Origin: Cryptosporangium phraense
GTDB taxonomy: Bacteria > Actinomycetota > Actinomycetes > Mycobacteriales > Cryptosporangiaceae
Length of the DNA: 64,000 bases
Assembly: GCF_006912135.1 (NCBI RefSeq)
Contig: NZ_VIRS01000009.1
Coordinates: forward strand, 62,001-126,000
Direction of reading: 5' to 3'
The notes under the pieces were generated by a model that was given only the letters and a program-made list of their open reading frames with translations, made no database searches and was not told the DNA's origin. Positions 513 through 55,729 of the stretch are shown in pieces; positions within the stretch are counted from its first letter, which is position 1; each line of letters opens with the position of its first letter. Made by a program: the position numbers and the translations under genes.

Positions 513-2632
513 GCCAGCTGCCAGAGTTTGACGGTGTGGTCGGCGCCGGCGGTCGCGATCTCGCGGCTGTCGGCGCTGAACGCCACGTTGTAGATCAGGT
601 CGGAGTGGTAGGTCGCGACGAAGCTGATCAGGCGGCCGGTGTTCGGGTTCCAGAGACCGAGCGACTTGTCCTCGCCGGCCGAGGCCAGCAGTCGGCCGTC
701 GGGGCTGAACGCGACCGTGTCGACGCCCTCGTTGTGGCCGGTGAGCGCCGAGCCGACCTGGGCCCGGGTGGCGACGTCCCAGAGCCGGACCGTGCCGTCG
801 TCGGACGCGGTCGCGAGCCGGTTGCCGTCCGGGTTGAACGCGACCGACCAGACCTCGGCCGTGTGGCCGGTCATCGGGCCGCCGATCGCCGCGCCGGTCG
901 CCGCGTTCCAGAGGCGGACGGTCTTGTCCGAGCTGACCGACGCGACCAGCCGGCCGTCGGGGCTGAACGCGACCCAGGTGACCTCGGCGGTGTGCCCCTT
1001 GAGCGCGGGGACGGTCTGCTTGCCGGTGGCCAGGTCCCAGATGCGCACGGTCTTGTCGTTGCCGGCCGAGGCGATGAGGGTCCCGGCCCGGTTGACCGCG
1101 ACCGCGTTGACCGCGCCGTCGTGGCCGGTGAGCGCGTCTCCGCGGCGCTGGCCGATCTGGGGGTCCCAGAGCAGGATCGTGCCGTCGGACTGGGACGTGA
1201 CGAGCGTACGGCCGTCGGCGGTGTAGGCGAGGCCGTCGACGTTGCCGTGCTGGCTCGGGCGGGCCGGCCCGATCGGGTCGCCGGTGCGGGTGTTCCAGAA
1301 GCGGATCGAGCCGTCCTTGCCGCCCGAGGCGATCACCGGGCGTTTCGGGTCGAAGGCCACCGCGTAGATGTCGTCGGTGTGGCCGCTGAGGGTCTTCACG
1401 AGCGTCGCCGTGGTGGGGGTGGGGCGCGGGGCCGGCGCGGAGGAGACGGGCGCCGTCGCGCCGGCGCGGACGTCGGCCGAGGGCGAACCGAGGCGGGACC
1501 CGACGTAGCCGGCGGTGAGGACGAGCGCTACGACCGCGAGCCCGGCCGCGGCGACCAGCCACGCCGTGCGCCGGCCCGTGCGGGGCCGCGCAGGCGGGAC
1601 GGAGAGCGCAGCGGGCGCCGGAGCCGCGGGCGGGGCGGCGAGGGCCACGGGCGCGGCGGCGAGAGCCGCGGGCGCGAACGCCGGGGACAGGCCGCCGGAG
1701 ATCCGCGTCGGGACGTCCGGCTGGGGAGTGGGGGCCGGCGGTGCGGGTTCGTCGAGGAGCACTCGGGGGTCCACGCGGAGCGGCACGCCGGTCGTCGTGA
1801 TCCAGCCCCGGCCGAAGGAGTCCCGGGCCGCCCGGGCCAGCTCCACCGCGAACTCCTGCGCCGATGCCGGCCGATCCGACGGCTTCTTCGCCAGCGCCCG
1901 CATCACCACCGCCGCGACCCGCGACGGGACGTCGTCCAGTGGTGCCGGCTCCCTCTCGATCACCTGCCGGACCACCGCGGCGAGCGACAGGTCGGTGCCC
2001 ACCGGCGTCCGATCGGCCAGCGCCCGGTACAGCGTCGCGCCCAGCGAGTACAGGTCGGCGGCCGGCCCCACCGGCGCGCCGAGGAACTGCTCCGGCGCCA
2101 TGTAGATCGGCGTCCCGAGCAGGCCGCTGGTCGAGGCGGCGGTGCCTTCGAACAGCTTGGCGATCCCGAAGTCCGAGAGCTTCGGCGCCCCGCCCGCGGT
2201 GAACAGCACGTTGTCGGGCTTGATGTCCCGGTGCGCGACCCCGCGCTCGTGCGCGGCCTGCAACCCGTCGGCGATCGCCAGTGCCCAGGCGCAGACCCGC
2301 TCCGGCGTCACCGGCTGGTGCAGCCGCTGCCCCAGCGTCCCGCCCGCGAGGTACTCCATGACGAGCAGCCGGACCGACCCGTGCTCGGCGTACTCGAACA
2401 CCCGGACCAGGTGTGGATGGTCCAGTTCGGTCATCAACTGGGCCTCGGACAGGAACCGGCGGGACAGCTCGGCGTCGTCGACCTCGGGCGCCACGATCGC
2501 TTTGACCGCACGCGTGACACCGAGCCGCCGGTGTCTCGCCGTGAACACCAGCCCGAACCCGCCACGGCCGATCTGGCCGCCGATGTCGTACCCCGGTAAC
2601 GCCCGCTCGATCTCCGCGCGGTCGATCAGCAT
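509..2632 (-). CDS. Membrane Ser/Thr protein kinase with C-terminal WD40 propeller
   Basis: 707 residues. A Hanks-type kinase domain covers about 14-270, with the glycine loop GRGGFG at 22-27, the ATP lysine at K44, HRDIKPDN at 134-141, DFG at 154-156 and APE near 179, so it looks catalytically complete. A Pro/Ala-rich linker leads to one transmembrane helix at about 357-377. Seven WD40 repeats (412-707, each with a GH...LW-D/N pattern) then form a predicted extracytoplasmic propeller, presumably a sensor or binding module. The ATG at 2632 is followed directly by the domain. The gene lies next to the alpha-glucan operon, but no target can be read from sequence. A 14-bp hairpin at 2675-2707 separates it from the upstream small gene. 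Confidence 0.93.
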   Translation of the reverse strand: MLIDRAEIERALPGYDIGGQIGRGGFGLVFTARHRRLGVTRAVKAIVAPEVDDAELSRRFLSEAQLMTELDHPHLVRVFEYAEHGSVRLLVMEYLAGGTLGQRLHQPVTPERVCAWALAIADGLQAAHERGVAHRDIKPDNVLFTAGGAPKLSDFGIAKLFEGTAASTSGLLGTPIYMAPEQFLGAPVGPAADLYSLGATLYRALADRTPVGTDLSLAAVVRQVIEREPAPLDDVPSRVAAVVMRALAKKPSDRPASAQEFAVELARAARDSFGRGWITTTGVPLRVDPRVLLDEPAPPAPTPQPDVPTRISGGLSPAFAPAALAAAPVALAAPPAAPAPAALSVPPARPRTGRRTAWLVAAAGLAVVALVLTAGYVGSRLGSPSADVRAGATAPVSSAPAPRPTPTTATLVKTLSGHTDDIYAVAFDPKRPVIASGGKDGSIRFWNTRTGDPIGPARPSQHGNVDGLAYTADGRTLVTSQSDGTILLWDPQIGQRRGDALTGHDGAVNAVAVNRAGTLIASAGNDKTVRIWDLATGKQTVPALKGHTAEVTWVAFSPDGRLVASVSSDKTVRLWNAATGAAIGGPMTGHTAEVWSVAFNPDGNRLATASDDGTVRLWDVATRAQVGSALTGHNEGVDTVAFSPDGRLLASAGEDKSLGLWNPNTGRLISFVATYHSDLIYNVAFSADSREIATAGADHTVKLWQLA

Positions 2633-2674
2633 GCCTCGGGAATACGCGGACGCTATATACGAAAGCTACACACG

Positions 2675-2707
2675 GAGAAGGTCCCGGGGACCACCCGGGA
2701 CCTTCTC
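2675..2707 (-). terminator. Perfect 14-bp hairpin at the end of the 82-residue gene
   Basis: The arms at 2675-2688 (gagaaggtcccggg) and 2694-2707 are exact reverse complements with a 5-nt loop. The downstream arm overlaps the TGA of the minus-strand gene 2706-2954. No T-run follows on either strand, so this is a terminator-like hairpin rather than a classic intrinsic terminator. It also lies about 45 bp upstream of the kinase start. Confidence 0.55.
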
Positions 2708-2954
2708 AGAGCAACTCTTCGTCTTCCTCGGGGAAGTAGTAGTAGAGCGTCACGTGAGGACGGTTAGCGCCGGCCTCGAGGTCGTAGTGCAGCAACACGT
2801 CCATCACGCCGATGGGACCGTCGGTCTCCATCTCCTCGATGGTGGCCGCAGCCGCCCTGAGCAGGTCGGGTATCCGGTCCTGGCCCGGCCCCTCGGGCAA
2901 GGCGATATTCACGTGACGGCACTGGAAGCCGTGGTGGATCCGATCGTGTGGCAT
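2706..2954 (-). CDS. Small acidic protein of unknown function (82 aa)
   Basis: I do not recognise a family. The product begins MPHDRIHHGFQC and ends in a very acidic tail (FPEEDEELL). The middle (LLRAAAATIEEMETDGP, then MDVLLHYD and HVTLYYYF) reads like a small mixed alpha/beta domain with no membrane segment or signal peptide. Codon use fits the neighbours. It sits alone between the glgB operon (ending 130 bp upstream) and the WD40 kinase on the same strand, and it ends inside a perfect hairpin. I judge it a real gene from its protein-like composition and the hairpin at its stop. Confidence 0.55.
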   Translation of the reverse strand: MPHDRIHHGFQCRHVNIALPEGPGQDRIPDLLRAAAATIEEMETDGPIGVMDVLLHYDLEAGANRPHVTLYYYFPEEDEELL

Positions 2955-3084
2955 CGACTGTGATCATGCCGTGTAGGTAGGGGATGTCTGCAACCGGCTC
3001 GGGAGAGTCGGTGCACATGCACTTCTCGTCCTGCTCACAAAGGTGACTTTCCGTCCTGATTTCGTTGTGGGAGAGGTACGGAGC

Positions 3085-5421
3085 TTAGTCTTCCTCGGAG
3101 CCGGAGGGGGTGCCAGGAACAACTCCCGGGTCCGCTCCGGGGTCCCGGCCCGCGGCCGCGCCCGGTCCGCTCTCGACCGGCGCTGCGGCCTCGGAGGACG
3201 ACGCAGGCGCCGCGGCCGACGCAGCAGCCGACGCGGACGGGCGTAGCCAGATCACGCCCAGCGGAGGCAGCGTCACCGAGGCCGACGCGGGCTCGCCGTG
3301 CCAGGGCCGGGCCTCGGCGACGACCTCGCCCAGGTTGCCGACGCCCGACCCGCCGTACAGATCGGAGTCGGTGTTCACGACCTCGTCCCAGGTACCGACC
3401 AGCGGCAGGCCGATCCGGTAGTCGTGGTGCGGGTGCCCGGCGAAGTTCGCCACGCAGGCCAGCACCGACCCGTCGGCGCCGTGACGCAGGAACGAGAAGA
3501 CGTTGCTCGCCGCGTCGTTGGCGTCGATCCACGAGAAACCGGCCGGGTCGACGTCCTGGGTCCACAGCGCCGGGCTCTCCCGGTAGACCCGGTTGAGGTC
3601 ACCGACGAGCTTCTGGACGCCCGCGTGGTCGGGGTTCTCGAGCGCCCACCAGTCGAGCGAGCGGTCCTGCGACCACTCGCCCTCCTGCGCGAGCTCGCCG
3701 CCCATGAACAGCAGCTGCTTGCCGGGGTGGGCCCACATGTAGGCGTACAGCGCCCGGAGCTGGGCCAGCTTGCGCCAGCGGTCGCCGGGCATCTTCCCGT
3801 AGAGCGAGCCCTTGCCGTGCACGACCTCGTCGTGCGACAGCGGCAGGACGAAGTTCTCGCTCCACGCGTAGACCAGCGAGAACGTCATCTGGTGGTGGTG
3901 GTACTGGCGGTGGATCGGGTCGCGGCTGAGGTAGTCGAGCGTGTCGTGCATCCAGCCCATGTTCCACTTGAACCCGAAGCCCAGCCCGCCGACGTGGGTG
4001 GGGCGGCTGACGCCGGGCCACGACGTCGACTCCTCGGCGACCATCATCGTGCCCGGGTGGTGCCGGTAGACGGTGGCGTTGAGCTCCTGCAGGAACTTCA
4101 CCGAGTCGAGGTTCTCCCGGCCGCCGTACTCGTTCGGCAGCCACTCCCCGTCCTTGCGTGAGTAGTCCAGGTAGAGCATCGAGGCCACCGCGTCGACCCG
4201 GAGGCCGTCGACGTGGAACTCCTCGAGCCAGTAGAGCGCGTTGGCGACCAGGAAGTTGCGCACCTCGTTGCGGCCGACGTCGAAGACGTAGGTGCCCCAG
4301 TCGGGGTGCTCGCCGCGGCGCGGGTCGGCCGGCTCGTAGAGCGGCGTCCCGTCGAAGCGGGCCAGCGCGAACGCGTCCTTGGGGAAGTGGGCGGGCACCC
4401 AGTCGACGAGGACGCCGATGCCGGCGGCGTGCAGCCGGTCGACCAGGTACCGGAAGTCGTCGGGGACGCCGAACCGGGAGGTGGGGGCGTAGTAGCCGGT
4501 GACCTGGTAGCCCCACGAGCCGCCGAACGGGTGCTCGGCGACCGGCAGGAACTCGACGTGGGTGAAGCCGAGGTTCGTGACGTACTCGACCAGCTCGTCG
4601 GCCAGCTGCCGGTAGGAGAGCCCCTGCTTCCACGAGCCCAGGTGCACCTCGTAGACGCTGACCGGCTTGGCGTGCCAGCCACCCTGGTCGCGCGTGGCCA
4701 CCCACTCGGCGTCGCTCCACTCGAACGACGACTCGGTGACGACGCTGGCGGTGGCCGGCGGCACTTCGGTCGCGAAGGCCAGCGGGTCGGCCTTCTCCCG
4801 CCAGTGCCCGTCCGGGCCGAGGATCTGGAACTTGTACCGGGCGCCGACGCCGACGTCGGGCACGAACAGCTCCCAGACGCCGCTGGAGCCCATCGAGCGC
4901 ATCGGGAGGCCGCGGCCGTCCCAGAACGTGAAGTCACCGGTGACCCGGACGCCCCGGGCGTTGGGCGCCCACACCGCGAAGCTGACGCCGGAGACCATTC
5001 CGCCGGGCGTCCCGTAGTGCCGGAGGTGGGCACCGAGGACGTCCCAGAGCCGTTCGTGCCTGCCCTCGCTGATCAGGTGCAGGTCGACCTCGCCGAGCGT
5101 CGGCAGCCAGCGGTAGGGGTCGTCGGTGACGTGCGCGCCGTGCCCCGGACCGTGGTCGTACCGCACCTCGAGCCGGTAGTCGCCCGGCTGCTCGGCGAAG
5201 TCCACCGCGAAGACCCCGCCGTCGTGGATCCGGGTCATCTCCCGGCGCTCGTCGCCGCTGACCAGCGTGACCGCGGCGGCCTCCGGCCGCAGCGTCCGGA
5301 CCACCCAGCCGCCGCTCTCCAGGCGATGGACGCCCAGAACACCGTGGGGGTTGTGGTGCTCGCCGCGGATCAGCTGATCCAGCTCGATCCGGCTCACTGA
5401 CATGTCGGGCTGAATGGTCAT
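3085..5421 (-). CDS. glgB: 1,4-alpha-glucan branching enzyme GlgB
   Basis: 778 residues from the ATG at 5421, which has a GAGAGG ribosome site just upstream; the frame is open further upstream but that part reads as shadow sequence. The order is an N-terminal carbohydrate-binding region ([10 protein letters not shown]), a CBM48 module ([17 protein letters not shown]), then a GH13 barrel with [12 protein letters not shown] (nucleophile Asp), a [10 protein letters not shown] acid/base region and [13 protein letters not shown]. An Ala/Pro/acidic low-complexity tail of about 50 residues (ending SGSEED) follows the catalytic part. It introduces alpha-1,6 branches and is the last gene of the glgE-treS-mak-glgB operon, 26 bp after mak. 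This is the GlgE-pathway arrangement known from mycobacteria and streptomycetes. Confidence 0.97.
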
Positions 5422-23216: not shown

Positions 23217-24836
23217 ATGACCGAGCTGGAAGGACACGGCGGGGAGCTGGCGCTGGCCGCGCTGCGGGCCCGCGGTGTCGAGGCGATGTTCACGCTCTCC
23301 GGTGGGCACGTCTTCCCGCTCTACGACGCGGCCCACACCACCGGTTTCCGGCTGATCGACGTCCGGCACGAGCAGAGCGCGGTGTTCGCGGCCGAGGCGA
23401 CCGCGAAGCTCACCCGTCGGCCCGGGCTCGCGGTGCTCACGGCCGGTCCGGGCGTGACGAACGGGGTCTCGGGCGTCACGTCGGCCAAGTTCAACGGCTC
23501 GCCGATCGTCGTCCTGGGCGGGCGGGCGCCGCAGATGCGCTGGGGCGCCGGGTCGCTGCAGGAGTTCGATCACGTCCCGGTGCTCGCGCCGATCACCAAG
23601 CACGCGGCGACGGTCACCGACGTCGGGGCGATCGCCGCCGACGTCGGCGCGGCCGCCGACCTGGCGCTGGCCCCGCACCGCGGTCCGGTCTTCCTCGACC
23701 TGCCGATGGACGTGATCTTCGACCGGGCCCGGTCGGAGATCACGCCGCCGGCGCCGCCCGCGGGCGGCGAGGCCGACCCGGCGGAGGTCTCGGCCGCCGC
23801 CGCGCTGATCGCGAGCGCCGAGCGTCCGGTGCTGATCGCCGGGTCGGACGTCTACGCCGGATCGGCCGAGCAGGCGCTGGTCGCGGCGGCCGAGGCGCTG
23901 CGGGTGCCGGTGTTCAGCAACGGGCAGGGTCGCGGGTGCATCCCGGCCGACCACCCGCTGGCGTTCGCCCGGGTCCGGGGCAAGGCGTTCAAGTCGGCGG
24001 ATCTCGTCGTGGTCGTCGGGACGCCGCTGGACTTCCGGCTCGGGTTCGGGGCGTTCGGCGAGGCGGCGGTCGTACACGTCGTCGACTCGCCGTCGCAGAA
24101 GGCCGGGCACGTGACGACGGCGGCCGCGCCGGTCGGCGACCTGGCGACGATCCTCACCGCGTTCGCCGACTACACCGGGCCGCGGGCCGACCACGAGAGC
24201 TGGATCGCGTCGCTGCGCGACCTCGAGGACGCGGCCCGGTCGGCCGAGCTGGACGTGCTGCGGGCCGACACCGATCCGATCAAGCCGGCCCGGATCTACG
24301 GTGAGCTGCGCTCGGTGCTCGACCGGGACGCGGTCGTGATCTGCGACGGCGGTGACTTCGTGTCGTACGGCGGGCGGTACCTCGACTCGTACACGCCCGG
24401 CTGCTGGCTCGACCCGGGGCCGTACGGCTGCCTCGGCACCGGAGCCGGGTACGCGATCGGGGCCCGGGTGGCCCGGCCCGACAAGCAGATCTGCGTGCTG
24501 TTCGGTGACGGCGCGGCCGGGTTCTCGCTGATGGACGTCGAGTCGTTGGTGCGCCAGAAGCTGCCGGTCGTGATGGTGGTCGGGAACAACGGGATCTGGG
24601 GGCTCGAGAAGCACCCGATGCAGGCGGTGTACGGCTACGACGTGGCGGCGGATCTGCAGCCTGGGCTGCGGTACGACGACGTCGTGAGCGCACTCGGGGG
24701 CGCGGGGGAGACCGTCGAGAAGCCGGGCGATCTGGGTCCGGCCCTGCGCCGAGCCTTCGACGCCGGAGTCCCGTACCTGGTGAACGTCCTGACCGATCCG
24801 TCCGACGCCTACCCCCGCAGTTCGAATTTGGCGTGA
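23217..24836 (+). CDS. ThDP-dependent acetolactate synthase-like enzyme (IlvG type)
   Basis: 539 residues in three domains. The Pyr domain has the cofactor-activating Glu in DVRHEQSAVFAAE and TAGPGVTNGVSG. The central domain has VLIAGSDVYAG. The PP domain has GDGAAGFSLMDVESLVRQ with the metal-binding GDGA...N pattern (VVGNNGIWG). FTLSGGHVFPLYD and VLGGRAPQMRWGAGSLQE closely recall mycobacterial IlvG, a catalytic-subunit paralogue of acetohydroxyacid synthase whose role is uncertain. No ilvN-like subunit follows. GAGAGGAA precedes the ATG, and TAGGGT at 23173-23178 could be the -10. A true ilvB lies at 62565. Confidence 0.85.
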   Translation: MTELEGHGGELALAALRARGVEAMFTLSGGHVFPLYDAAHTTGFRLIDVRHEQSAVFAAEATAKLTRRPGLAVLTAGPGVTNGVSGVTSAKFNGSPIVVLGGRAPQMRWGAGSLQEFDHVPVLAPITKHAATVTDVGAIAADVGAAADLALAPHRGPVFLDLPMDVIFDRARSEITPPAPPAGGEADPAEVSAAAALIASAERPVLIAGSDVYAGSAEQALVAAAEALRVPVFSNGQGRGCIPADHPLAFARVRGKAFKSADLVVVVGTPLDFRLGFGAFGEAAVVHVVDSPSQKAGHVTTAAAPVGDLATILTAFADYTGPRADHESWIASLRDLEDAARSAELDVLRADTDPIKPARIYGELRSVLDRDAVVICDGGDFVSYGGRYLDSYTPGCWLDPGPYGCLGTGAGYAIGARVARPDKQICVLFGDGAAGFSLMDVESLVRQKLPVVMVVGNNGIWGLEKHPMQAVYGYDVAADLQPGLRYDDVVSALGGAGETVEKPGDLGPALRRAFDAGVPYLVNVLTDPSDAYPRSSNLA

Positions 24837-24842
24837 GAAGAG

Positions 24843-24871
24843 TGTCGTAGCGCGGCCCGGGTGTTCGTGGT
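24843..24871 (+). promoter_or_regulatory. Candidate ECF-type promoter of the first RibD-DGPF-sigma operon
   Basis: TGTCGT (24843-24848), a 17-nt spacer and CGTGGT (24866-24871) lie 38 bp before the first ATG. ECF42 sigma factors are reported, as I recall, to use a TGTCGA-type -35. The related box before the mirror operon (32146-32174) has the same 17-nt spacing. This is inference from two sites only. Confidence 0.35.
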
Positions 24872-24897
24872 GAGGGTGTAAGCCACCAACACCCGGG
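24856..24897. promoter_or_regulatory. Long interrupted palindrome upstream of the RibD-DGPF-sigma operon
   Basis: cccgggtgtt (24856-24865) and aacacccggg (24888-24897) are perfect 10-bp inverted arms. An inner GTGG/CCAC pair (24867-24870, 24883-24886) extends the stem. The distal arm touches the GGGAGGA ribosome site at 24895-24901. It could be a terminator for the ThDP gene, an operator, or an RNA hairpin that masks the ribosome site. Confidence 0.55.
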
Positions 24898-24908
24898 AGG
24901 ACGTACCG

Positions 24909-25547
24909 ATGAAGCTCAGCGTCAATCTGTTTCTCACGCTCGACGGGGTCGCGCAGGGGCCGGGCGGGCGGGAGGAAGACACCTCGGGCAAGTTCGACCG
25001 CGGCGGCTGGGTCGTGCCGTACTTCGACGAGGCCGGCGGTGCGTTCGTGAGCCGCTACTTCGCCGAAGCCGAGGCGTTCCTCTACGGCCGCCTCACCTAC
25101 CAGATCATGGCCGCCCACTGGCCGCTGGTCACCGACCCCGCCGACCCGGTCGCCGGCCGGCTCAACACCTACCCCAAGTACGTCGTCTCCAGCACCCTCA
25201 CCGACGCCGACGCGAGCTGGGCCAACAGCACGGTCCTGCGCGGCGACTTCCTGGCCGCGATCCGCGACCTGAAGAAGCAGCCCGGCGGCGAGCTCCAGGT
25301 CCACGGCTGCGCCCAGCTGGCCCGGACCCTGCACGAGGCCGGCCTGATCGACGTCTACCGGCTGATGATCTTCCCGGTGACCGTCGGCGACGGTAAGCGC
25401 CTGTTCTCGCCCGACGCCCCGCCGACCGGCTTCCGTACGGTGAGCGCGGAAACCACGCCCACCGGGGTCTCGCTGCTGACGCTGGAACCGGTACCGTTCG
25501 CCGCCGGCGACTTCGAGGTCATCGACGGCGAGTCACGCGCCCGATAA
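24909..25547 (+). CDS. Dihydrofolate reductase/RibD C-terminal family protein
   Basis: 212 residues. The beginning [20 protein letters not shown] and the segments [29 protein letters not shown] and [20 protein letters not shown] followed by [12 protein letters not shown] are diagnostic of stand-alone RibD_C reductase-fold proteins. They probably bind NADPH; substrates are generally unknown. Family members often sit beside DGPF/YCII and ECF42 genes, as here: the DGPF gene starts 17 bp downstream after a GAGGAG site. A second, shorter homologue is at 31567-32103 in a mirrored set. Confidence 0.9.
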
Positions 25548-25564
25548 CGCGAGGAGAAACAGTC

Positions 25565-25915
25565 ATGGCACAGCAGTACATGCTCTCGGTCTGGCACGTC
25601 GGCGGGTACCCGGAGCTTCCCCCGGACGAGATGCAGGCCCAGTTCGAGGCCGTCGGCGCGTTCAACCAGGAGGTCATGGACGCCGGCGCCTGGGTGTTCG
25701 CCGGCGGCCTGATGCCCCGGGACACCGCGACGACCGTCGACAACACCGGCGCCGAGACGATCCTGGCCGACGGCCCGTTCGCCGAGACCAAAGAGCACAT
25801 CGGCGGCTTCTGGGTGATCACGGCCGAGAATCTCGACGAGGCGCTGCGCTGGGCGGCCAAGGGCTCGAAGGCGTGCGCGGGCAAGGTCGAGGTCCGGCCC
25901 TTCCAGAGCGAATGA
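25565..25915 (+). CDS. DGPF/YCII-domain protein
   Basis: 116 residues with the motif ADGPFAETKEHIGGFWVI, which gives the DGPF family its name, in a ferredoxin-like YCII fold. These small proteins are the characteristic partners of ECF42 sigma factors. Their biochemical role is unsettled, with dehydrogenase- or enzyme-like activity proposed. GCGAGGAG lies upstream. The last four bases ATGA are shared with the start of the sigma factor gene, so translation is coupled. Confidence 0.92.
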   Translation: MAQQYMLSVWHVGGYPELPPDEMQAQFEAVGAFNQEVMDAGAWVFAGGLMPRDTATTVDNTGAETILADGPFAETKEHIGGFWVITAENLDEALRWAAKGSKACAGKVEVRPFQSE

Positions 25916-27114
25916 CCGCGTCCGACGAGGACATCGAGCGCATCGTCCGGGCCGAGTACGGGCGGGTCGTGGCGACGCTCGTCCGCCGCTTCTCCGACGT
26001 CGACATCGCCGAGGAAGCGGCCGGCGAGGCGCTCGTCGTCGCGGTGCAGACCTGGCGGCGGGACGGGCTGCCGCCGAACCCCGGCGGCTGGCTCGTCACC
26101 ACGGCCGGCAACCGGGCCATCGACCGGATCCGACGCGAGTCCACCCGGGACGCCCGCCAGAAGGAGGCGGCCATGCTCACCCCGCCCGACTCCGATCCAC
26201 TCGGCGCGGTCGACGACGACCGGCTCCGGCTCATCTTCATGTGCTGCCACCCGGCGCTGGCCGTCGAAGCCCGGGTCGCGCTGACGCTGCGGCTGGTCGT
26301 CGGCCTGTCGATGGCCGAGATCGCGGCCGCGTTCGTCGTCGAGGAGACGACGATGGCGCAGCGTCTCACCCGGGCCAAGCGGAAGATCAAGGCGGCCCGG
26401 ATCCCGTTCGGGGTCCCGTTCGCCTCCGACCTGCCGTCCCGGCTGAGCTCGGCGATGGCCGTCGTCTACCTGGTCTTCAACCAGGGCTACTTCGCCACCA
26501 CCGGTGACGTCCCGCTCCGGGGCGAGCTCTGCGCCGAGGCGATCCGGCTGGCCCGGCTGCTCCGGCAGCTGCTGCCGGACGAGCCGGAGACGTCCGGACT
26601 GCTGGCCCTGCTCCTGCTGACCGACGCGCGTCGGCCGGCGCGGTTCGAGGGGACGACACTCGTACCGCTGGCCGAGCAGGACCGTACCCGGTGGATCCGG
26701 CCGTCGATCGACGAGGGGCACGACCTGGTCCGGCAGTGCCTGAAGCTCCAGCGCCCGGGTTACTACCAGATCCTGGCCGCGATCAACGCCGTGCACACCG
26801 ACGGCCCGGCGAGCGACTGGCGGCAGGTGCTGGCGCTCTACGACCAACTGATGGTCGTGGCCCCGTCGCCGGTCGTCGCACTGAACCGGGCGGTCGCGCT
26901 GGCCGAGGTCGAGGGGCCGGCGGCCGCGTTGACGGCCGTCGACGCGCTCGACCTCGTGCCGTACCACGCCTGGCACGCGACCCGGGCCGACCTGCTCCGC
27001 CGGCTCGGTCACGACCGGGACGCCGCCGCGGCCTACGAGTCGGCGATCGCGCTGGCCGACAACCCGGCCGAGCGGGACTTCCTGACCACGCGTTTGGCTT
27101 CAGTCCGCGGCTAG
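25912..27114 (+). CDS. ECF42-type RNA polymerase sigma factor with C-terminal extension
   Basis: 400 residues from the ATG at 25912, overlapping the DGPF gene by ATGA. Sigma region 2 is at about 5-75 (ADIAEEA-like stretch, NPGGWLVTTAGNRAIDRIR) and region 4 at about 110-165 (LTLRLVVGLSMAEIAAAFVV, MAQRLTRAKRKI). A helical, TPR-like extension of about 230 residues (VYLVFNQGYFATTGD; ALNRAVALAEVEGPAAAL; AYESAIALADNPAERDFL) is typical of ECF42, where it replaces an anti-sigma factor in control. Its product pairs with the DGPF protein. The first diguanylate cyclase gene begins 11 bp after the stop. Confidence 0.92.
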   Translation: MTASDEDIERIVRAEYGRVVATLVRRFSDVDIAEEAAGEALVVAVQTWRRDGLPPNPGGWLVTTAGNRAIDRIRRESTRDARQKEAAMLTPPDSDPLGAVDDDRLRLIFMCCHPALAVEARVALTLRLVVGLSMAEIAAAFVVEETTMAQRLTRAKRKIKAARIPFGVPFASDLPSRLSSAMAVVYLVFNQGYFATTGDVPLRGELCAEAIRLARLLRQLLPDEPETSGLLALLLLTDARRPARFEGTTLVPLAEQDRTRWIRPSIDEGHDLVRQCLKLQRPGYYQILAAINAVHTDGPASDWRQVLALYDQLMVVAPSPVVALNRAVALAEVEGPAAALTAVDALDLVPYHAWHATRADLLRRLGHDRDAAAAYESAIALADNPAERDFLTTRLASVRG

Positions 27115-27125
27115 CCCGCCGATGG

Positions 27126-28547
27126 GTGGGCGTGCTGTCGCGTCGAGCCCGGGCGCTGGCCCACTCGGTGCTGGTCGGCACCGTCGTCATGTCGCTGATC
27201 GTCGTGCTGCGGGTGCTCGGCCTGGCCGGGACGACCCCGCTGTGGGTGTTCGCCGTGCTCGTCGTCGTCGGAACGACGTTCCACGAGCCGGCGCTGCACC
27301 GCGCGCTCAGCGGCGGCGACCTCAGCCGGCGGCTCTGGCCGCGGGTCGCGATGCGGTACCTGGTCAACACCGCGACGATCTACGCGACCGGCTGGGGCCC
27401 GGTGCTGGCCGTGACCCACCTCGTCCTGCTGTCGGAGTTCACCGGCCAGTCCGGCTCGCGGGCCTGGCGGCCGGCCGCGGTGTGCAGCGCCGTGACGATC
27501 GGGCTCGGCGAGCTGGCGATCAACGCCGGCCTGTACAGCTACCTCCCGGAGCCCCAGGTGCACGGGGTGGCCGTGCTGGTCGCGGCCGGCACCGTGCTCG
27601 CCTGCCGGTTCTTCGGAGCCGCCGTCCGGGCCCGCGAGCAGGTGGAGACCGCGCTGCGCGGGAGCGAGGAACGGTTCCGGTCGGTCGTCCAGGACGGGTC
27701 GGACATGGTCACGTTCACCGATCGGGACGGCGTCCTGCGGTACGTGAGCCCGAACTCGTCCCGGGTCGTCGGACACGAGCCCGAGGTCCTGCTCGGCGAC
27801 GGCCTGTGGAAGCTCATCCACCCCGACGACCGGGACCTCGCCCACGAGTTGCGGGCCCGGATCCGCGAGCAGCCGGACACCGAGCACTCGGCCGAGCTGC
27901 GATTCCGGCGGGCCGACGGCGTCTGGCGATGGCACGAGGTCGTGGTCCGCAACCTGCTCGACCGTCCCGAGGTCGACGCGGTCGTCGGCCACCAGCGGGA
28001 CGTGCACGACCGGCGGACCGCGCAGGACCGGATCGCCTACGCGGCGACCCACGACGCGCTCACCGGCCTGCTCAACGCGTCGGCGTTCCAGCTGGCGCTG
28101 GAGGAGACGCTCGGGCACTCCTACCCGGTGGGCCTGCTGTTCCTCGACCTGGACGGGTTCAAGCAGGTCAACGACGTCCTCGGGCACGCGGCCGGTGACG
28201 AGAGGCTGCGCCTGGTCGCCGACGTGCTGCGGACGTGCGGCCGGGAGCGGGACGTGCTCGGCCGGCTCGGGGGCGACGAGTTCGTCGTCGCGCTGAACGG
28301 CGTCGGCGGGAGCGCGCAGGCCGAGGCGATCGCCGCGGCGATCATCCAGGGCATCGACGCGGCCCAGCCGCCCGACGACGGGGGCACGCGGGTGGGGTGC
28401 AGCATCGGCATCGCGCTGGCCCAGCCGGGCGAGGTGGACGCCCGCGGCCTGGTGCGCCGGGCCGACGCGGCGATGTACACCTCGAAGCGCCGGCGGCGGA
28501 ACGGGTACGAGCTCTCCGCCGGATCGATGCCGGCCGTGGCCGGGTGA
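27126..28547 (+). CDS. Membrane PAS-GGDEF diguanylate cyclase (first of pair)
   Basis: 473 residues from the GTG at 27126; a GTG at 27132 is also possible. About four to five transmembrane helices cover 1-155 (VLVGTVVMSLIVVLRVLGLA onward). A PAS domain at 175-300 (FRSVVQDGSDMVTFTDRDG; PEVLLGDGLWKLIHPDD; WRWHEVVVRNLL) is followed by a GGDEF domain at 310-470 with FLDLDGFKQVNDVLGH and RLGGDEFVV. An RERD inhibitory site lies five residues before GGDEF, so it should make cyclic di-GMP under product inhibition. Eleven bp separate it from the sigma factor gene, and the next cyclase overlaps it by GTGA. Confidence 0.92.
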   Translation: MGVLSRRARALAHSVLVGTVVMSLIVVLRVLGLAGTTPLWVFAVLVVVGTTFHEPALHRALSGGDLSRRLWPRVAMRYLVNTATIYATGWGPVLAVTHLVLLSEFTGQSGSRAWRPAAVCSAVTIGLGELAINAGLYSYLPEPQVHGVAVLVAAGTVLACRFFGAAVRAREQVETALRGSEERFRSVVQDGSDMVTFTDRDGVLRYVSPNSSRVVGHEPEVLLGDGLWKLIHPDDRDLAHELRARIREQPDTEHSAELRFRRADGVWRWHEVVVRNLLDRPEVDAVVGHQRDVHDRRTAQDRIAYAATHDALTGLLNASAFQLALEETLGHSYPVGLLFLDLDGFKQVNDVLGHAAGDERLRLVADVLRTCGRERDVLGRLGGDEFVVALNGVGGSAQAEAIAAAIIQGIDAAQPPDDGGTRVGCSIGIALAQPGEVDARGLVRRADAAMYTSKRRRRNGYELSAGSMPAVAG

Positions 28548-29980
28548 GCCCGTTGCGCCATCTCCGCAACGCGGCCGAGCAGGTGGTCGTGCTACTCGTG
28601 CTCGCCGTGCTGCGGTTGTTCGACCTGGTCGGCCCCACGCCGTTCTGGGTGTTCGTCGCGCTGCTGGGGGCGGGCGCGGTCCTGCAGCAGCCGGGGGTGC
28701 AGGACCGGCTGGGCGGCGGGACCGGCGAGCGGCTGTGGCTGCGCGTCGGGTCGCGGATCGCGATCAACACGACGCTGATCTACGCGATCGGCTGGGGCGC
28801 GATGCTGGCCGTCGCGCACCTCAACGTGCTGTCCCGGTTCGTCCGGCAGGACGGTTCCCGGGCCTGGCGGCCGCTGGCCGTGTGCAGTGCGGTGTCGCTG
28901 CTGATCGGCCAGGTCGCGATCGGCTGCGGGCTGTTCAGCTACCTGCCGCTCCCCGAAGGGCACGGGGTCGCGCTGTTGATCGGGCTCGGCGTCGTCAGCA
29001 CGAGTGCGGTGCTCGGGGAGGCCGTCCGCCGGAGGGAAGAGGCGGAAGCCGCGCTCCGCGCGAGCGAGGGCGCCCTCCGCGCGAGCGAGGAGCGCTTCGC
29101 GGCGCTCCTGTACGACGGGGCCGACATCATCACGCTGACCGACGCCGACGGGCAGGTCGTCTACGTGAGCCCGACCGCCGCGCGGATCACCGGGCACGAC
29201 CCGGCGAGCCTGCTCGGCGACGGCCTGTGGACGCACCTCCACCCGGACGACTACGCGGCCGCCGCGGAGTTCAACGCCCGGATCCGCGCCGAGCCGGACG
29301 TCGTGCACGCCCGGGAGCTGCGGATCCGGCACGCCGACGGGTCGTGGCGCTGGCACGAGTTCGTCACCCGCAACCTGCTGACGCACCCCGGCGTGCGGGC
29401 GATCGTCGGCCACCACCGGGACATCCACGACCGGCGGACCGCCCAGGAACAGATCCTGTACGCGGCGACGCACGACGAACTGACCGGCGTCCTGAACAAC
29501 TCGGCGGTCAAGCTCATGATCGAGCAGACGCTGGCCGGCGCGGCCGAGGGCGGGTACCCGGTCGGGCTGCTCTTCCTCGACCTGGACGGGTTCAAGCAGG
29601 TCAACGACGACCACGGGCACGCCGCCGGGGACGAGAAACTGCAGCTGGTCAGCCGGGTCCTGGAGTCGACCGGCCGGGAGCGGGACGTGATCGGGCGGAT
29701 CGGCGGCGACGAGTTCGTCGTGCTGTGCAACGGCGTGGCCGGGCCGGAGCAGCTGGAGGCCCAGGCCCGGCTGATCCTGGCCGGGATCGCGGACGCCCAG
29801 CCGCCCGGGGAGAGCGGTGCCCGGGTCGGGTGCAGCATCGGGATCGCGCTGGCCGACCCGGGCACGCTGGACGCCAAGGCGCTGCTGCGCCGAGCGGACG
29901 CGGCGATGTACGTGTCGAAGCGACGCGGCCCCAACGGCTACGAGGTGTTCGCCGACTCGATGATCGCCAACGCCGGTTAG
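28544..29980 (+). CDS. Membrane PAS-GGDEF diguanylate cyclase (second of pair)
   Basis: 478 residues from the GTG at 28544, overlapping the previous stop (GTGA). It has the same architecture as the upstream gene: about four to five N-terminal transmembrane helices, a linker, PAS (FAALLYDGADIITLTDADG; WRWHEFVTRNLL) and GGDEF with FLDLDGFKQVNDDHGH, an RERD inhibitory site and RIGGDEFVVL. Long stretches are shared with its neighbour (for example GSRAWRPLAVCSAVSL against GSRAWRPAAVCSAVTI), so they arose by tandem duplication. The helix before PAS contains a fresh internal repeat (ALRASEG, ALRASEE). The stop overlaps the convergent second ECF42 gene by 4 bp. Confidence 0.92.
   Translation: MSPLRHLRNAAEQVVVLLVLAVLRLFDLVGPTPFWVFVALLGAGAVLQQPGVQDRLGGGTGERLWLRVGSRIAINTTLIYAIGWGAMLAVAHLNVLSRFVRQDGSRAWRPLAVCSAVSLLIGQVAIGCGLFSYLPLPEGHGVALLIGLGVVSTSAVLGEAVRRREEAEAALRASEGALRASEERFAALLYDGADIITLTDADGQVVYVSPTAARITGHDPASLLGDGLWTHLHPDDYAAAAEFNARIRAEPDVVHARELRIRHADGSWRWHEFVTRNLLTHPGVRAIVGHHRDIHDRRTAQEQILYAATHDELTGVLNNSAVKLMIEQTLAGAAEGGYPVGLLFLDLDGFKQVNDDHGHAAGDEKLQLVSRVLESTGRERDVIGRIGGDEFVVLCNGVAGPEQLEAQARLILAGIADAQPPGESGARVGCSIGIALADPGTLDAKALLRRADAAMYVSKRRGPNGYEVFADSMIANAG
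29051..29092 (+). repeat. 21-bp tandem duplication in the PAS linker
   Basis: Two 21-bp units (29051-29071 and 29072-29092), differing at three positions near their ends, encode ALRASEG and ALRASEE. The paralogue upstream has a single copy (ALRGSEE). It adds two helical turns to the signalling helix between membrane and PAS domain. Confidence 0.8.
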
Positions 29981-31209
29981 GAATGTCCGGCCGCGCACTC
30001 GGACGCCCGGCGTTGCATCGTCGAGCGGTCGGCCGCGTTCTGGGTCCGGGCGGCCGCGGTGAGGAAGTGTTCGCGGGCGGTGGCGTGGTCGCCGTGGCGG
30101 CAGTGCAGGTCACCGGCTACGGCGTTCAGGAGGTGGTACTGCGCCAGGCTGGGCAGGGCGAAGAGCGGCTCGAGCACCTCCAGACCCGCGGCCGGGCCGA
30201 ACGCCCGGGCAGTCGCGACCGCCCGGTTGAGCTCCACGACCGGCGACGGGCTGATCCGGGCCAGCCCGTCGTAGAGCGCGGTCATCCGCTCCCAGTCCGT
30301 GTCTTCGTAGCGGGCCGCCCTGGCGTGGCAGGACGCGATCGCCGCCTGCAGCGCGTACGGGCCGGTCGTGCCGCCGAGCTGCTCGATCCGGTCGAGGGTG
30401 GCCAGGCCGCGCCGGATCAGCAGCCGGTCCCAGCGGGTGCGGTCCTGGTCGTCGAGCATGATCGGCTCGCCGTCCGGCGTCTCCCGGGCCCGCAGCCGGG
30501 ACGCCTGGATCTCGATCAGCGCGAGCAGGCCGAGCGTCTCGGTGTCGTTCGGGGTCAGCGCGGCCAGCATCCGGCCCAGCCGCAGTGCCTCCGCGCACAG
30601 GTCGCCCCGGATCCACCGGTCTCCGCTGGTGGCCGCGTAACCCTCGTTGAACACTAGGTAGATCACCTCGCGGACGGCGTCCGTACGAGGCTTCCGGTCG
30701 TCGGGAAGCTCGAAGCGGACCTTGGCCGCGGCCAAGGTCTTCTTGGCCCGGACGATGCGCTGCGCGATCGTCGGGACCGGGGTCAGGAACGCGCGGGCGA
30801 CGTCCTCGGTGCTCAGGCCGCAGACGAGCTTGAGCGTGAGCGCGGACCGCGCGTCCGGCGACAGGATCGGGTGGCAGGCCATGAAGATCAGCCCGAGCAG
30901 GTCGTCGGCGAGCGTTTGGTCTTCCGAAACCTCGTACGTCTCCGGCTCCGACGCCGCCACCAGCCGGTACTTGCCCCGCTGGACGTCCCGGCGGCGGAGC
31001 CGGTCGATCGCCAGGAACTTCGCGGTGGTGTTCAGCCAGGCCGCCGGGTTGTCCGGGACGCCCTCGCTCCGCCACTTCTCGATCGCGGAGACGAAGACGT
31101 CCTGGGCGAGCTCCTCGGCGGTGTCGAGATCACCGACCAGACGCATCAACCGGGCGATGACCCGTGGCGACTCGACCCGCCACAGGACATCGATCCGGTC
31201 GTCGGTCAC
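29977..31209 (-). CDS. ECF42-type RNA polymerase sigma factor (mirror copy)
   Basis: 410 residues. Region 2 has LDTAEELAQDVFVSAIEKW and NPAAWLNTTAKFLAIDRLRR; region 4 has LTLKLVCGLSTEDVARAFLT and TIAQRIVRAKKTL. The long helical C-terminal extension (VIYLVFNEGYAATSGD; LNRAVATARAFGPAAGLEVL) marks ECF42. It shares layout with the factor at 25912 but is clearly diverged, so it may recognise a different promoter. The ATG overlaps the stop of the DGPF gene upstream (ATGA), and its own stop overlaps the cyclase gene on the other strand. Confidence 0.92.
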   Translation of the reverse strand: MTDDRIDVLWRVESPRVIARLMRLVGDLDTAEELAQDVFVSAIEKWRSEGVPDNPAAWLNTTAKFLAIDRLRRRDVQRGKYRLVAASEPETYEVSEDQTLADDLLGLIFMACHPILSPDARSALTLKLVCGLSTEDVARAFLTPVPTIAQRIVRAKKTLAAAKVRFELPDDRKPRTDAVREVIYLVFNEGYAATSGDRWIRGDLCAEALRLGRMLAALTPNDTETLGLLALIEIQASRLRARETPDGEPIMLDDQDRTRWDRLLIRRGLATLDRIEQLGGTTGPYALQAAIASCHARAARYEDTDWERMTALYDGLARISPSPVVELNRAVATARAFGPAAGLEVLEPLFALPSLAQYHLLNAVAGDLHCRHGDHATAREHFLTAAARTQNAADRSTMQRRASECAAGHS

Positions 31210-31562
31210 TGCAGGTCGTCGAACTCGTTGACCTTGCGGACGTCGACCCGCTCGACGCCGATCAGCAGCGCGTACCGGCGGGCGTGCTCGATCGCCTCGG
31301 CCAACGAGTCGACCTCGAGGATCGCGAAGCCGCCGATCAGCTCCTTGGCCTCGGCGAACGGCCCGTCGATCACCCGGACGTCGCCGTTCTCGACCTCCAG
31401 CCGGGCGCCCTGCTTGCTGGACGCGACGCCCTCGCCGGCCAGGAGCACGCCGGACATCGACAGCTCCTGGACGTACTCGCCCACCTTCGCGATCGTCTCC
31501 GGCGTCGGCTTGACGCCGTCCTCGTCGGCCTGGGTCTCGTAGTGCATGAGCATGTAGCGCAT
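31206..31562 (-). CDS. DGPF/YCII-domain protein (mirror copy)
   Basis: 118 residues beginning MRYMLMHYETQADEDG, with VIDGPFAEAKELIGGFAIL, the DGPF motif. It is only 4 bp downstream of the RibD-type gene and is coupled by ATGA to the following ECF42 gene, the same order and overlap as in the plus-strand set at 25565-25915. The two DGPF proteins have low overall similarity outside the motif, which argues for an old duplication or independent acquisition. Confidence 0.92.
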   Translation of the reverse strand: MRYMLMHYETQADEDGVKPTPETIAKVGEYVQELSMSGVLLAGEGVASSKQGARLEVENGDVRVIDGPFAEAKELIGGFAILEVDSLAEAIEHARRYALLIGVERVDVRKVNEFDDLQ

Positions 31563-31566
31563 CAGT

Positions 31567-32103
31567 TCACTCCGCGGGTGCGTAGACGGCGTGCACGACG
31601 CCGGTGCCGAACGTGGTCGAGGACAGCAGGGAGAGTTTCACGGTCGGGCCGTCGGCGCCGAACAGCTTCTGCCCGTGCCCGACGACGATCGGGTGGACCA
31701 GCAGGTGCAGCTCGTCGATCAGCGCGTTCTCGACCAGCCAGCGGACGAGGCTCGCGCTGCCGGTGACGCCGAGCCGGGTGCCCTTCTTCAGCTCGCGCAG
31801 CTCGGCGGCCACGTCCCCGCTGATCACCGTCGTGTTCTCCCAGGTCGCCTCGGTGAGCGTGGTCGAGACGACGTACTTCTTCGCGCCGTTCATCTGCGCG
31901 GTCATCGGGTCGTTCGGGTCGGCCTTGGGCCAGAACTCGGCGAAGCCGTCGTAGGTGCGCCGGCCGAGCAGCGTGGCGTCGTTGTCCATCAGCCCGCCGA
32001 CGGCCGCGCCCATCGCGTCGTCGAAGTACGGGAAGTGCCACGTCTCCGGCGCCTCGATCACGCCGTCGACGGAGATGAACAGACCGGCCTTGATGTATCC
32101 CAT
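31567..32103 (-). CDS. Dihydrofolate reductase/RibD C-terminal family protein (mirror copy)
   Basis: 178 residues: [49 protein letters not shown]-like VVSTTLTEATWENTTVISGD and VHPIVVGHGQKLFG. These are the standard signatures of stand-alone RibD_C reductase-fold proteins. The ATG follows a GAGGAGC ribosome site. First gene of the minus-strand RibD, DGPF, sigma operon. A TGTCGA box about 70 bp upstream (32169-32174) could be its sigma-dependent promoter. Confidence 0.9.
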   Translation of the reverse strand: MGYIKAGLFISVDGVIEAPETWHFPYFDDAMGAAVGGLMDNDATLLGRRTYDGFAEFWPKADPNDPMTAQMNGAKKYVVSTTLTEATWENTTVISGDVAAELRELKKGTRLGVTGSASLVRWLVENALIDELHLLVHPIVVGHGQKLFGADGPTVKLSLLSSTTFGTGVVHAVYAPAE

Positions 32104-32145
32104 GGGGTGCTCCTCGTTCGGGCTCGTCGTGGTGCTTCACCCGGT

Positions 32146-32174
32146 ACGCCGAACGACGACCGCGGGATTCGACA
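32146..32174 (-). promoter_or_regulatory. Candidate ECF-type promoter of the mirror operon
   Basis: On the minus strand TGTCGA (32174-32169), a 17-nt spacer and CGGCGT (32151-32146) lie about 45 bp before the ATG at 32103. TGTCGA is the -35 I recall for ECF42 sigma factors. It compares with TGTCGT, 17 nt, CGTGGT before the other operon. Confidence 0.4.
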
Positions 32175-32191
32175 CGTCTCCGAAAGTTTTT

Positions 32192-33667
32192 TTATTCGAC
32201 GACGACGTGGGCCAGACCGAGTGGGGGCGCGCCGAGCGAGAGCAGAGCCTGGTGGAATTCTCGCAGGTCGGACCGCGTGCGCGCGCGGAGGTCGCGCAGC
32301 ACGAGCTTGCCCCAGGTGTACCGGCCGTACGTGGGGTCGAACGTGCCCCGCCGGGCCTCGGACAGCGCGGCCGGCCCGGAGAGGAACGCCTGCTCGGTGA
32401 AGAGCGCGGTCGCGTCGGGCACGGTCATCGACCCGGTGTGCAGCCCGATCGCGCAGAGCAGCCGGACGACCCGCACCAGCGCCTCGAGCGCGACCCCGGC
32501 CGCGAACCGCGGGTCACCGTCGCGGAACCCCTGTTCGAGCGCCACCTCCTCGACGTAGTGGGCCCAGCCCTCGACGAACGCGTCGGAGAGCAGCAGCCGC
32601 CGGACGTCGGAGTCGAGCCGGCGCAGGGCCCGGCCGTGCGTGTAGTGGCCGGGCGCGACCTCGTGGACGGTGATCGCCGGGAGGCTCGAGGAGTTGAACA
32701 CCGACAGCCACTCGGCCTGCTCGGCCGCCGGCCAGGCCGGGTCGGGCGGCGTGACGTGGTACCACGACGGCGCGTCGGGCTCGAAGGGCGCGGCCCAGTC
32801 CATCATCGCCATCGCCCACTGCCGCGACTCGGGCGCCGGGCCGACGTAACACTCGCCGTCGGTCTCCGGGAACAGGCCGGACGCGTTGCTCCAGGCGATG
32901 GCCTCGTAGGTCTCGGCCTGGGCCGTGCTGATCACGCCGCTGATGTCGGGGTGGTCGGCGAGCAGGGTCCGCACGGTGGTGGCGGTCGGCTGCCCGGGCG
33001 CGATCCGCGCGCAGGCGTCGTCGAGCAGGGCCCGGAGGCGGTCGAGCTCGGCCTGACCGGCGGCGGCGAGTTCGGTCAGGTTCACCGGCAGGGCCTCGGC
33101 GCTGGAGAGCAGCGCGGTCAGCCCGTCGGCGCCGAGTTCGACCGGGGCCTCGCTGGTGGCGGCCGCGTTCGTCAGGTGTTCGACCAGGCGTTGCTGGGCC
33201 GCCAGGGCCTTGGCGTCCTTGACCGGGTCCAGGCCCGCGGCCAGGCCGGTCGCGCTGCCCAGGCTCGCCTCCGCGACCGCGGCCGGCACGGCGTCCAGCG
33301 CCTCGATCGACGCGTCGACCGCGTCCGGCCAGCCGGTCAGGTGCCTGGCGCGGGCCTCGGCCCGCTCGGCGGCCGGGGCGTACTCGCGGTCGTAGCAGGC
33401 CAGGTCGAGGTTGGAGAGGTGGGCGAGCGGGTTCCGGCGGTGCAGCGCGAGGTCGCCGAGGGCGACCCGGGCCCGCTGCTCGAACGCGACGACGTGCGCC
33501 TCGTCGTGCGGGTCGGGGTACGCCGGTCCGTCGTTCAGGCGCGCCAGCCCCATTCGGACGCCGTCCGGCGACAGGTCCTGCACGGTGCCGTCGTACTCGT
33601 GCCGCCCACACCCCTCGCGGGTTCCGGCGACGTCCAGATCAGCCAGTGCACGCAGTCGAGAGTCCAC
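32192..33667 (-). CDS. DUF885 family protein (putative metallohydrolase)
   Basis: 491 residues from the GTG at 33667 (VDSRLRALADLDVAG); the frame is open further upstream, but that sequence is antisense to the methyltransferase. The motif VHEVAPGHYTHGRALRRL (HExxPGH) is the signature of DUF885, thought to be a zinc-binding hydrolase related to carboxypeptidases. YGRYTWGKLVLRDLRART and the alpha-helical rest also fit. No signal peptide, so it is probably cytoplasmic. It starts 10 bp after the methyltransferase stop, so the two genes are likely cotranscribed, though they share no obvious pathway. Confidence 0.85.
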   Translation of the reverse strand: MDSRLRALADLDVAGTREGCGRHEYDGTVQDLSPDGVRMGLARLNDGPAYPDPHDEAHVVAFEQRARVALGDLALHRRNPLAHLSNLDLACYDREYAPAAERAEARARHLTGWPDAVDASIEALDAVPAAVAEASLGSATGLAAGLDPVKDAKALAAQQRLVEHLTNAAATSEAPVELGADGLTALLSSAEALPVNLTELAAAGQAELDRLRALLDDACARIAPGQPTATTVRTLLADHPDISGVISTAQAETYEAIAWSNASGLFPETDGECYVGPAPESRQWAMAMMDWAAPFEPDAPSWYHVTPPDPAWPAAEQAEWLSVFNSSSLPAITVHEVAPGHYTHGRALRRLDSDVRRLLLSDAFVEGWAHYVEEVALEQGFRDGDPRFAAGVALEALVRVVRLLCAIGLHTGSMTVPDATALFTEQAFLSGPAALSEARRGTFDPTYGRYTWGKLVLRDLRARTRSDLREFHQALLSLGAPPLGLAHVVVE

Positions 33668-54866: not shown

Positions 54867-55223
54867 ATGACTCCGCTGCCCGGGAAACCTGTTCGTGGGT
54901 CGACGACCGGGCGGCCGGTCATGGCGCTGCTCGACCTGCTCGGGCGCCGCTGGACGCTCCGGATCCTGTGGGAGCTGCGCACCGACGCCCAGGGCTTCCG
55001 CGCACTGCAGAGGGCCTGCGACGGCATGAGCCCGACCGTGCTCGCGACCCGGCTGACCGAGCTGCGCGAGGCCGGCCTGGTCGCGACCGACGAGGTCAAC
55101 CGCCTGACCCCGCTCGGCGACCAACTGATGGCCGCCCTGGGGCCCCTGAACGACTTCGCGAACATCTGGGCCGACGAACTGCAACCGCCGGCCACCCCAC
55201 CGCGTGACAAGAGGTCGTGGTGA
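54867..55223 (+). CDS. HxlR-family winged-helix regulator
   Basis: 118 residues. VMALLDLLGRRWTLRILWEL, FRALQRACDGMSPTVLATRL and LTELREAGLVATDEVNRLTP give the complete HxlR winged helix. It lacks the conserved N-terminal cysteine used by redox-type HxlR members (the start reads MTPLPGKPVRGSTTGRP). It is probably leaderless, and it overlaps the following ECF sigma gene. It likely represses the divergent decarboxylase-family/aminotransferase pair. Confidence 0.92.
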   Translation: MTPLPGKPVRGSTTGRPVMALLDLLGRRWTLRILWELRTDAQGFRALQRACDGMSPTVLATRLTELREAGLVATDEVNRLTPLGDQLMAALGPLNDFANIWADELQPPATPPRDKRSW

Positions 55224-55729
55224 CCCGTGAGAGCGAGTTCGACGACTTCTACGCCCGGCACTTCCCGGGCATCGGCACGCAGATCGCGGCCTATCTGGGC
55301 GACCGGGCCGAGGCCGAAGACATCACCCAGGAGGCGTTCGCGCGGGCCTGGCGGCGGTGGCCACGCCTCTCCGGCTACGCCGACCCGGCCGCCTGGGTGC
55401 GCACCGTCGCCTACCGGCTGGCGGTGAGCCGGTGGCGGCGGGCCCGGGTCGCGTTCGCGCACCGCCGCCAGCAACGGGCCGAGCCGGTGCCGCCACCTGA
55501 TCCGGAGTGGCTCGACCTGGTCCGGGCGCTGGCCACGCTGCCGCCGGCGCAGCGTCGGGCGGTCGTCCTGCACTACCTGGGCGATCTGTCGGTCGACGAG
55601 ATCGCCGCGCGGGAGAAGGTCGCGGCCGGGACGGTCAAGTCCTGGCTCCACCGGGCCCGCGGACGCCTGGCCACGCAGTTGGGTCCCGACGAGATCGCGC
55701 ACCGAGAGAGGGTGTCCCGTGACTACTGA
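55220..55729 (+). CDS. ECF sigma factor, SigE/SigM-like family
   Basis: 169 residues from the GTG at 55220, sharing GTGA with the HxlR stop; a GTG at 55217 is in frame but too close to the GAGGT site. Region 2 has FDDFYARHFPGIGTQIAAYL, AEDITQEAFARAWRRWPRLS and DPAAWVRTVAYRLAVSRWRR. Region 4 has LATLPPAQRRAVVLHYLGDL, SVDEIAAREKVAAGTVKSWL and HRARGRL. It resembles the compact SigE-family factors of actinomycetes. Its last 11 bp overlap the membrane protein gene downstream, which may encode its regulator. Confidence 0.9.
   Translation: MTRESEFDDFYARHFPGIGTQIAAYLGDRAEAEDITQEAFARAWRRWPRLSGYADPAAWVRTVAYRLAVSRWRRARVAFAHRRQQRAEPVPPPDPEWLDLVRALATLPPAQRRAVVLHYLGDLSVDEIAAREKVAAGTVKSWLHRARGRLATQLGPDEIAHRERVSRDY

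Follow-up and report, generated by a model that had tools for sequence, protein, structure and literature searches.

An ECF42–DGPF sigma factor module adjoining diguanylate cyclase genes in Cryptosporangium phraense

ECF42 sigma factors are widespread, and the targets that they control are mostly unclear. The closest described systems are the ECF42–DGPF modules of Streptomyces venezuelae (Sven_0747/4377/7131) and Sinorhizobium meliloti (RpoE10), in which an ECF factor with a long C-terminal extension is encoded beside a YCII/DGPF gene; targets of RpoE10 have promoters of the TGTCG-N-CGT type. The TPR-type extension, possibly together with the YCII protein, is believed to govern ECF42 activity, and protein interaction is the suspected mode of control, with partners of the extension not yet identified (PMC8999054). 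The portions of the literature that we drew on link Pseudomonas putida ECF-10, of the ECF42 group, to stress resistance and biofilm formation, and those portions describe no adjacent cyclase (PMC6180224, PMC8999054). The ECF factor SigX of Pseudomonas aeruginosa raises c-di-GMP through the cyclase gene adcA (PA4843) (PMC4477172). The locus that we describe here is built like the ECF42–DGPF modules of S. venezuelae and S. meliloti, and its promoter resembles those of RpoE10 targets in type and spacing, but its putative operon extends further, to a pair of genes for diguanylate cyclases. It would resemble SigX in that an ECF factor raises c-di-GMP by transcribing cyclase genes; SigX, however, belongs to a different ECF group, and its cyclase targets, judged from locus numbers, are regulon members outside its own operon.

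We analysed a window of 64,000 nt from C. phraense contig NZ_VIRS01000009.1, and all coordinates are positions in this window. Pfam scans and ORF boundaries recovered all eight genes named in a preliminary description of this DNA, to which we add three regulatory features:

24843–24868, plus strand: ECF42-type promoter (TGTCGTA-N14-TTCGT) of the plus-strand operon, kept in four species and backed by motif counts
24858–24894, no strand assigned: palindrome across the −10 element and 5′ leader, present in four of four species with differing sequences
24909–25547, plus strand: RibD_A, RibD C-terminal domain, reductase-like (PF01872, E 2e-26)
25565–25915, plus strand: DGPF_A, YCII-related/DGPF protein (PF03795, E 3e-13; DGPF motif)
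25912–27114, plus strand: ECF_A, ECF42 sigma factor with DUF6596 C-terminal extension (PF04542, PF08281; PF20239, E 2e-32)
27132–28547 (alternative start GTG 27126), plus strand: DGC1, predicted membrane region, PAS and GGDEF (PF00990, E 9e-36; PAS_3, E 2e-11; RxxD I-site; GGDEF)
28544–29980, plus strand: DGC2, predicted membrane region, PAS and GGDEF (PF00990, E 1e-35; I-site; GGDEF; 59% identity to DGC1)
29977–31209, minus strand: ECF_B, second ECF42 sigma factor (PF20239, E 6e-35; 43% identity to ECF_A)
31206–31562, minus strand: DGPF_B, YCII-related/DGPF protein (PF03795, E 4e-17)
31567–32103, minus strand: RibD_B, RibD C-terminal domain (PF01872, E 2e-20)
32147–32174, minus strand: weak candidate promoter (TGTCGA-N17-CGGCG) of the minus-strand operon, with a similar site in one other species

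The genes are tightly packed. DGPF_A and ECF_A overlap by ATGA, as had been reported, and DGC1 and DGC2 overlap by GTGA; the stops of DGC2 and ECF_B share TTAG at 29977–29980, in agreement with the 4-bp stop overlap noted before. The 11-bp gap described between ECF_A and DGC1 corresponds to a start at GTG 27126, whereas GTG 27132, which leaves a gap of 17 bp, is supported as the conserved start by the alignment of two related species. We assigned sigma factors to ECF42 by sigma regions 2 and 4, a C-terminal extension of about 200 residues, a YCII/DGPF neighbour and a typical promoter. Both region domains (PF04542 and PF08281) scored above cut-off in ECF_A (400 aa) and ECF_B (410 aa), both proteins carry the DUF6596 (PF20239) extension, and a PF03795 gene overlaps the start of each sigma gene. 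The source genome contains 12 DUF6596 genes. ECF42 matches that were split or incomplete, and that may be sigma genes in decay, were also observed at G000:C27:42369-43154 and at G001:C1:6600823-6602391. Another ECF-type sigma gene lies in the window at 55217–55729 (plus strand; Sigma70_r2 match), and its product of 170 aa is too short for ECF42.

We compared the source species (G000) with three other species of the genus (G001, G002 and G003). The flanks are syntenic, with ECH, acyltransferase-like and acetolactate synthase (ALS) genes on one side and EtfB and EtfA on the other. The mirror layout recurs in G003 with a single cyclase, and more than 200 bp separate its two facing operons. G002 has the plus-strand module and one cyclase without the minus-strand module. 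In G001 the plus-strand module is present but no cyclase follows, and only RibD_B of the minus-strand module is retained. The pair of cyclases was found in the source species alone; the sigma–cyclase linkage is present in three of four species and the mirror in two. The lack of any cyclase in G001 indicates that the sigma–cyclase link is dispensable.

Both cyclases contain the GGDEF catalytic motif within a PF00990 domain (E ~1e-35), and an RxxD inhibitory site (RERD) lies five residues before it. The catalytic motifs are intact in every cyclase copy at the locus across species. Each cyclase has four or five hydrophobic stretches; the structure model of the membrane part is of low confidence (pLDDT 52), and a family scan of the first 170 residues gave no Pfam match. 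In the cyclase tree, DGC1 fell outside a group that joins DGC2 to the one cyclase each of G002 and G003 (support 95/96), which suggests either an old tandem pair with one copy lost in G002 and G003 or faster change in DGC1. Among 299 genomes of the order, the sole strong relative outside the genus (E at most 1e-60) was a protein of G236 with 44% identity, and the 19-kb stretch around its gene contained no ECF42 or DGPF homologue. A search of contigs from named organisms returned only distant GGDEF matches.

Consistent with an ECF42-driven operon, TGTCGT-N17-CGT precedes RibD_A in each of the four species compared, and the promoter list for S. meliloti RpoE10, an ECF42 factor, has equal spacing (PMC6180224). 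A scan of 41 genomes of the order found the exact TGTCGTA-N14-TTCGT pattern 20 times and a reversed-pattern control twice. Six of the ten exact sites in other genera were just upstream of DGPF–ECF42 genes; at one of these six the sigma factor was matched but DGPF was not, and at two others DGPF alone lay within the stretch examined or was matched. In the source genome the exact motif occurs three times, before the RibD_A operon, another RibD_C gene and a gene for a small predicted membrane protein. Related small membrane protein genes (L164, L166, L173 and L175) are found in four of four species, with the motif ~40–60 bp before the start, and this gene is likely an ECF42 target. The motif permits the prediction of candidate regulon members across actinomycetes. 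The palindrome at the RibD_A promoter, which may serve to bind a repressor or to form a hairpin in the RNA, is also present upstream of RibD_A in L062, L063 and L061, and a palindrome likewise occurs at the second RibD_C promoter (L171). We regard the minus-strand promoter candidate as weak because its pattern has a high genome-wide background, with ~200 matches per genome.

We detected no terminator-like site in 24700–32400, so the cyclases are probably co-transcribed with ECF_A, as the preliminary description had proposed. The short ECF_A-to-cyclase gaps in three species (17, ~29 and ~52 bp) and the promoter kept in four species also support this part of the earlier proposal. An exact TGTCGTA-N14-TTCGT site directly before a cyclase gene was not found, and any sigma dependence of the cyclases would therefore come through read-through. 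A cyclase promoter inside ecf_A could be invisible to scans with poor actinobacterial coverage. We consider it fairly probable that the plus-strand genes form one operon that is driven by its own ECF42 factor, with positive feedback, and that reads into the cyclases. That the locus is an ECF42–DGPF module with its own second-messenger output, in which sigma factor, DGPF protein, RibD-like enzyme and cyclases share one autoregulated transcript, seems to us evenly balanced between true and false. In such a module, ECF_A would become active, probably through its TPR-type extension and with involvement of the DGPF protein. RNA polymerase would start at TGTCGTA-N14-TTCGT, which would raise the amounts of RibD-like enzyme, DGPF protein and sigma factor. 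Transcription would then read on into the two predicted membrane-bound PAS–GGDEF diguanylate cyclases. Stress sensing would then lead to a greater capacity to make c-di-GMP, gated by the sensor domains of the cyclases and by product inhibition. The sequence itself shows the gene content, the intact catalytic and inhibitory motifs, the conserved promoter and sigma–cyclase adjacency, and a history of rearrangement; read-through transcription, sigma dependence, cyclase activity and the nature of the signal are inferred from it.

One alternative is that the cyclases landed behind the ECF42 operon by coincidence and receive some read-through, while having their own promoter and a separate function. 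We think this rather unlikely, although several observations fit it. Assuming ~7,700 genes, the 12 ECF42 genes and ~59 GGDEF-type matches of the source genome give a rough expectation of ~0.2 chance neighbours per genome, and the conserved sigma–cyclase locus is a single evolutionary event. The preliminary description had proposed a search for ECF42 and DGPF genes near GGDEF genes in other genomes; none of 63 other ECF42 loci (genus paralogues together with order- and phylum-level homologues) had a GGDEF gene within ~1.5 kb on either side, whereas 62 had a DGPF gene and six a RibD_C gene. The sole c-di-GMP gene near these loci, close to chance expectation, encodes an EAL-domain (c-di-GMP phosphodiesterase-like) protein at L094 (G067; 2624–3613), directly upstream of DGPF–ECF42 on the same strand. 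Coincidence also fits the species without a cyclase and the rapid divergence of the cyclases, the fastest-diverging part of the locus (60–68% identity, compared with ~83% for ECF_A). Against it, the adjacency of the plus-strand module and cyclase and their orientation are kept in three species despite rearranged genes just downstream, the gaps are short with no terminator detected, and every cyclase copy has retained its catalytic motifs. Because an ECF42-type promoter and synteny are conserved in related species, we read the plus side as more than chance proximity. Signalling might also run in reverse, with local c-di-GMP or the cyclases controlling the ECF42 factor, for example by contact with the TPR extension. 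This would agree with the view that partner proteins control ECF42 extensions (PMC8999054), but a GGDEF neighbour is missing from almost every ECF42 locus, and it is DGPF that is conserved as the partner; we therefore consider it very improbable.

ECF_A and ECF_B are only ~43% identical, and the mirror is therefore two different modules facing each other; this low identity ruled out an inverted duplication. In G002, the interval from the cyclase to EtfB contains a glycosyltransferase gene, a radical-SAM island, a GH57-like gene and a methyltransferase gene (named by reading translations). In mycobacteria, the placement of methyltransferase–GH57–glycosyltransferase genes beside etfBA is ancient. 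The interval from the cyclase to ECF_B in G003 contains 32 bp that align, with two mismatches, to the end of the glycosyltransferase gene of G002; the alignment scored 27, and the highest score among 200 shuffles was 15.5. The simplest reading of these sequences is that the minus-strand module, along with its DUF885-like neighbour, took the place of the glycosyltransferase and GH57 genes. The mirror is probably a product of rearrangement, because the minus-strand module sits at the glycosyltransferase/GH57 site and the 32-bp remnant persists in G003; chance rearrangement accounts well for it. Shared neighbours favour a split of G000 and G001 from G002 and G003 (49 informative sites, against 18 and 17), and this split alone does not yield a single insertion of the minus-strand module. 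The minus-strand ECF42–DGPF–RibD set is probably an independent ECF42 unit that was placed here secondarily, and the mirror-image arrangement itself has little meaning.

This history bears on the dual sigma circuit put forward in the preliminary description, which also suggested that convergent transcription could let each operon dampen the other. In such a circuit the two ECF42 operons would each influence the cyclases, and the minus-strand operon would dampen cyclase expression by convergent transcription. The wiring of the plus side to c-di-GMP is plausible; the dual circuit finds no support in the history and tail-to-tail position of the minus-strand module, and we rejected it as the best explanation on that history. 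The tail-to-tail placement with a 4-bp overlap in the source species and the mirror layout of G003 would fit such a circuit. However, ECF_B lies downstream on the opposite strand with its own, differing candidate promoter, G002 has a cyclase without the minus-strand module, G001 keeps only RibD_B, and the module occupies the place of the glycosyltransferase cluster. Mutual dampening also fits poorly with an overlap that is confined to the source species, the operons of G003 being more than 200 bp apart. We judge the dual circuit improbable.

We read the locus as a genus-restricted variant of the ECF42–DGPF module. An ECF42 factor that probably shares a transcript with c-di-GMP synthases provides a testable output for a factor of this group. 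In related bacteria (Streptomyces), c-di-GMP controls development. If the proposed module is correct, ECF42 factors would gain a defined physiological output through c-di-GMP, and stress sensing would be tied to this second messenger.
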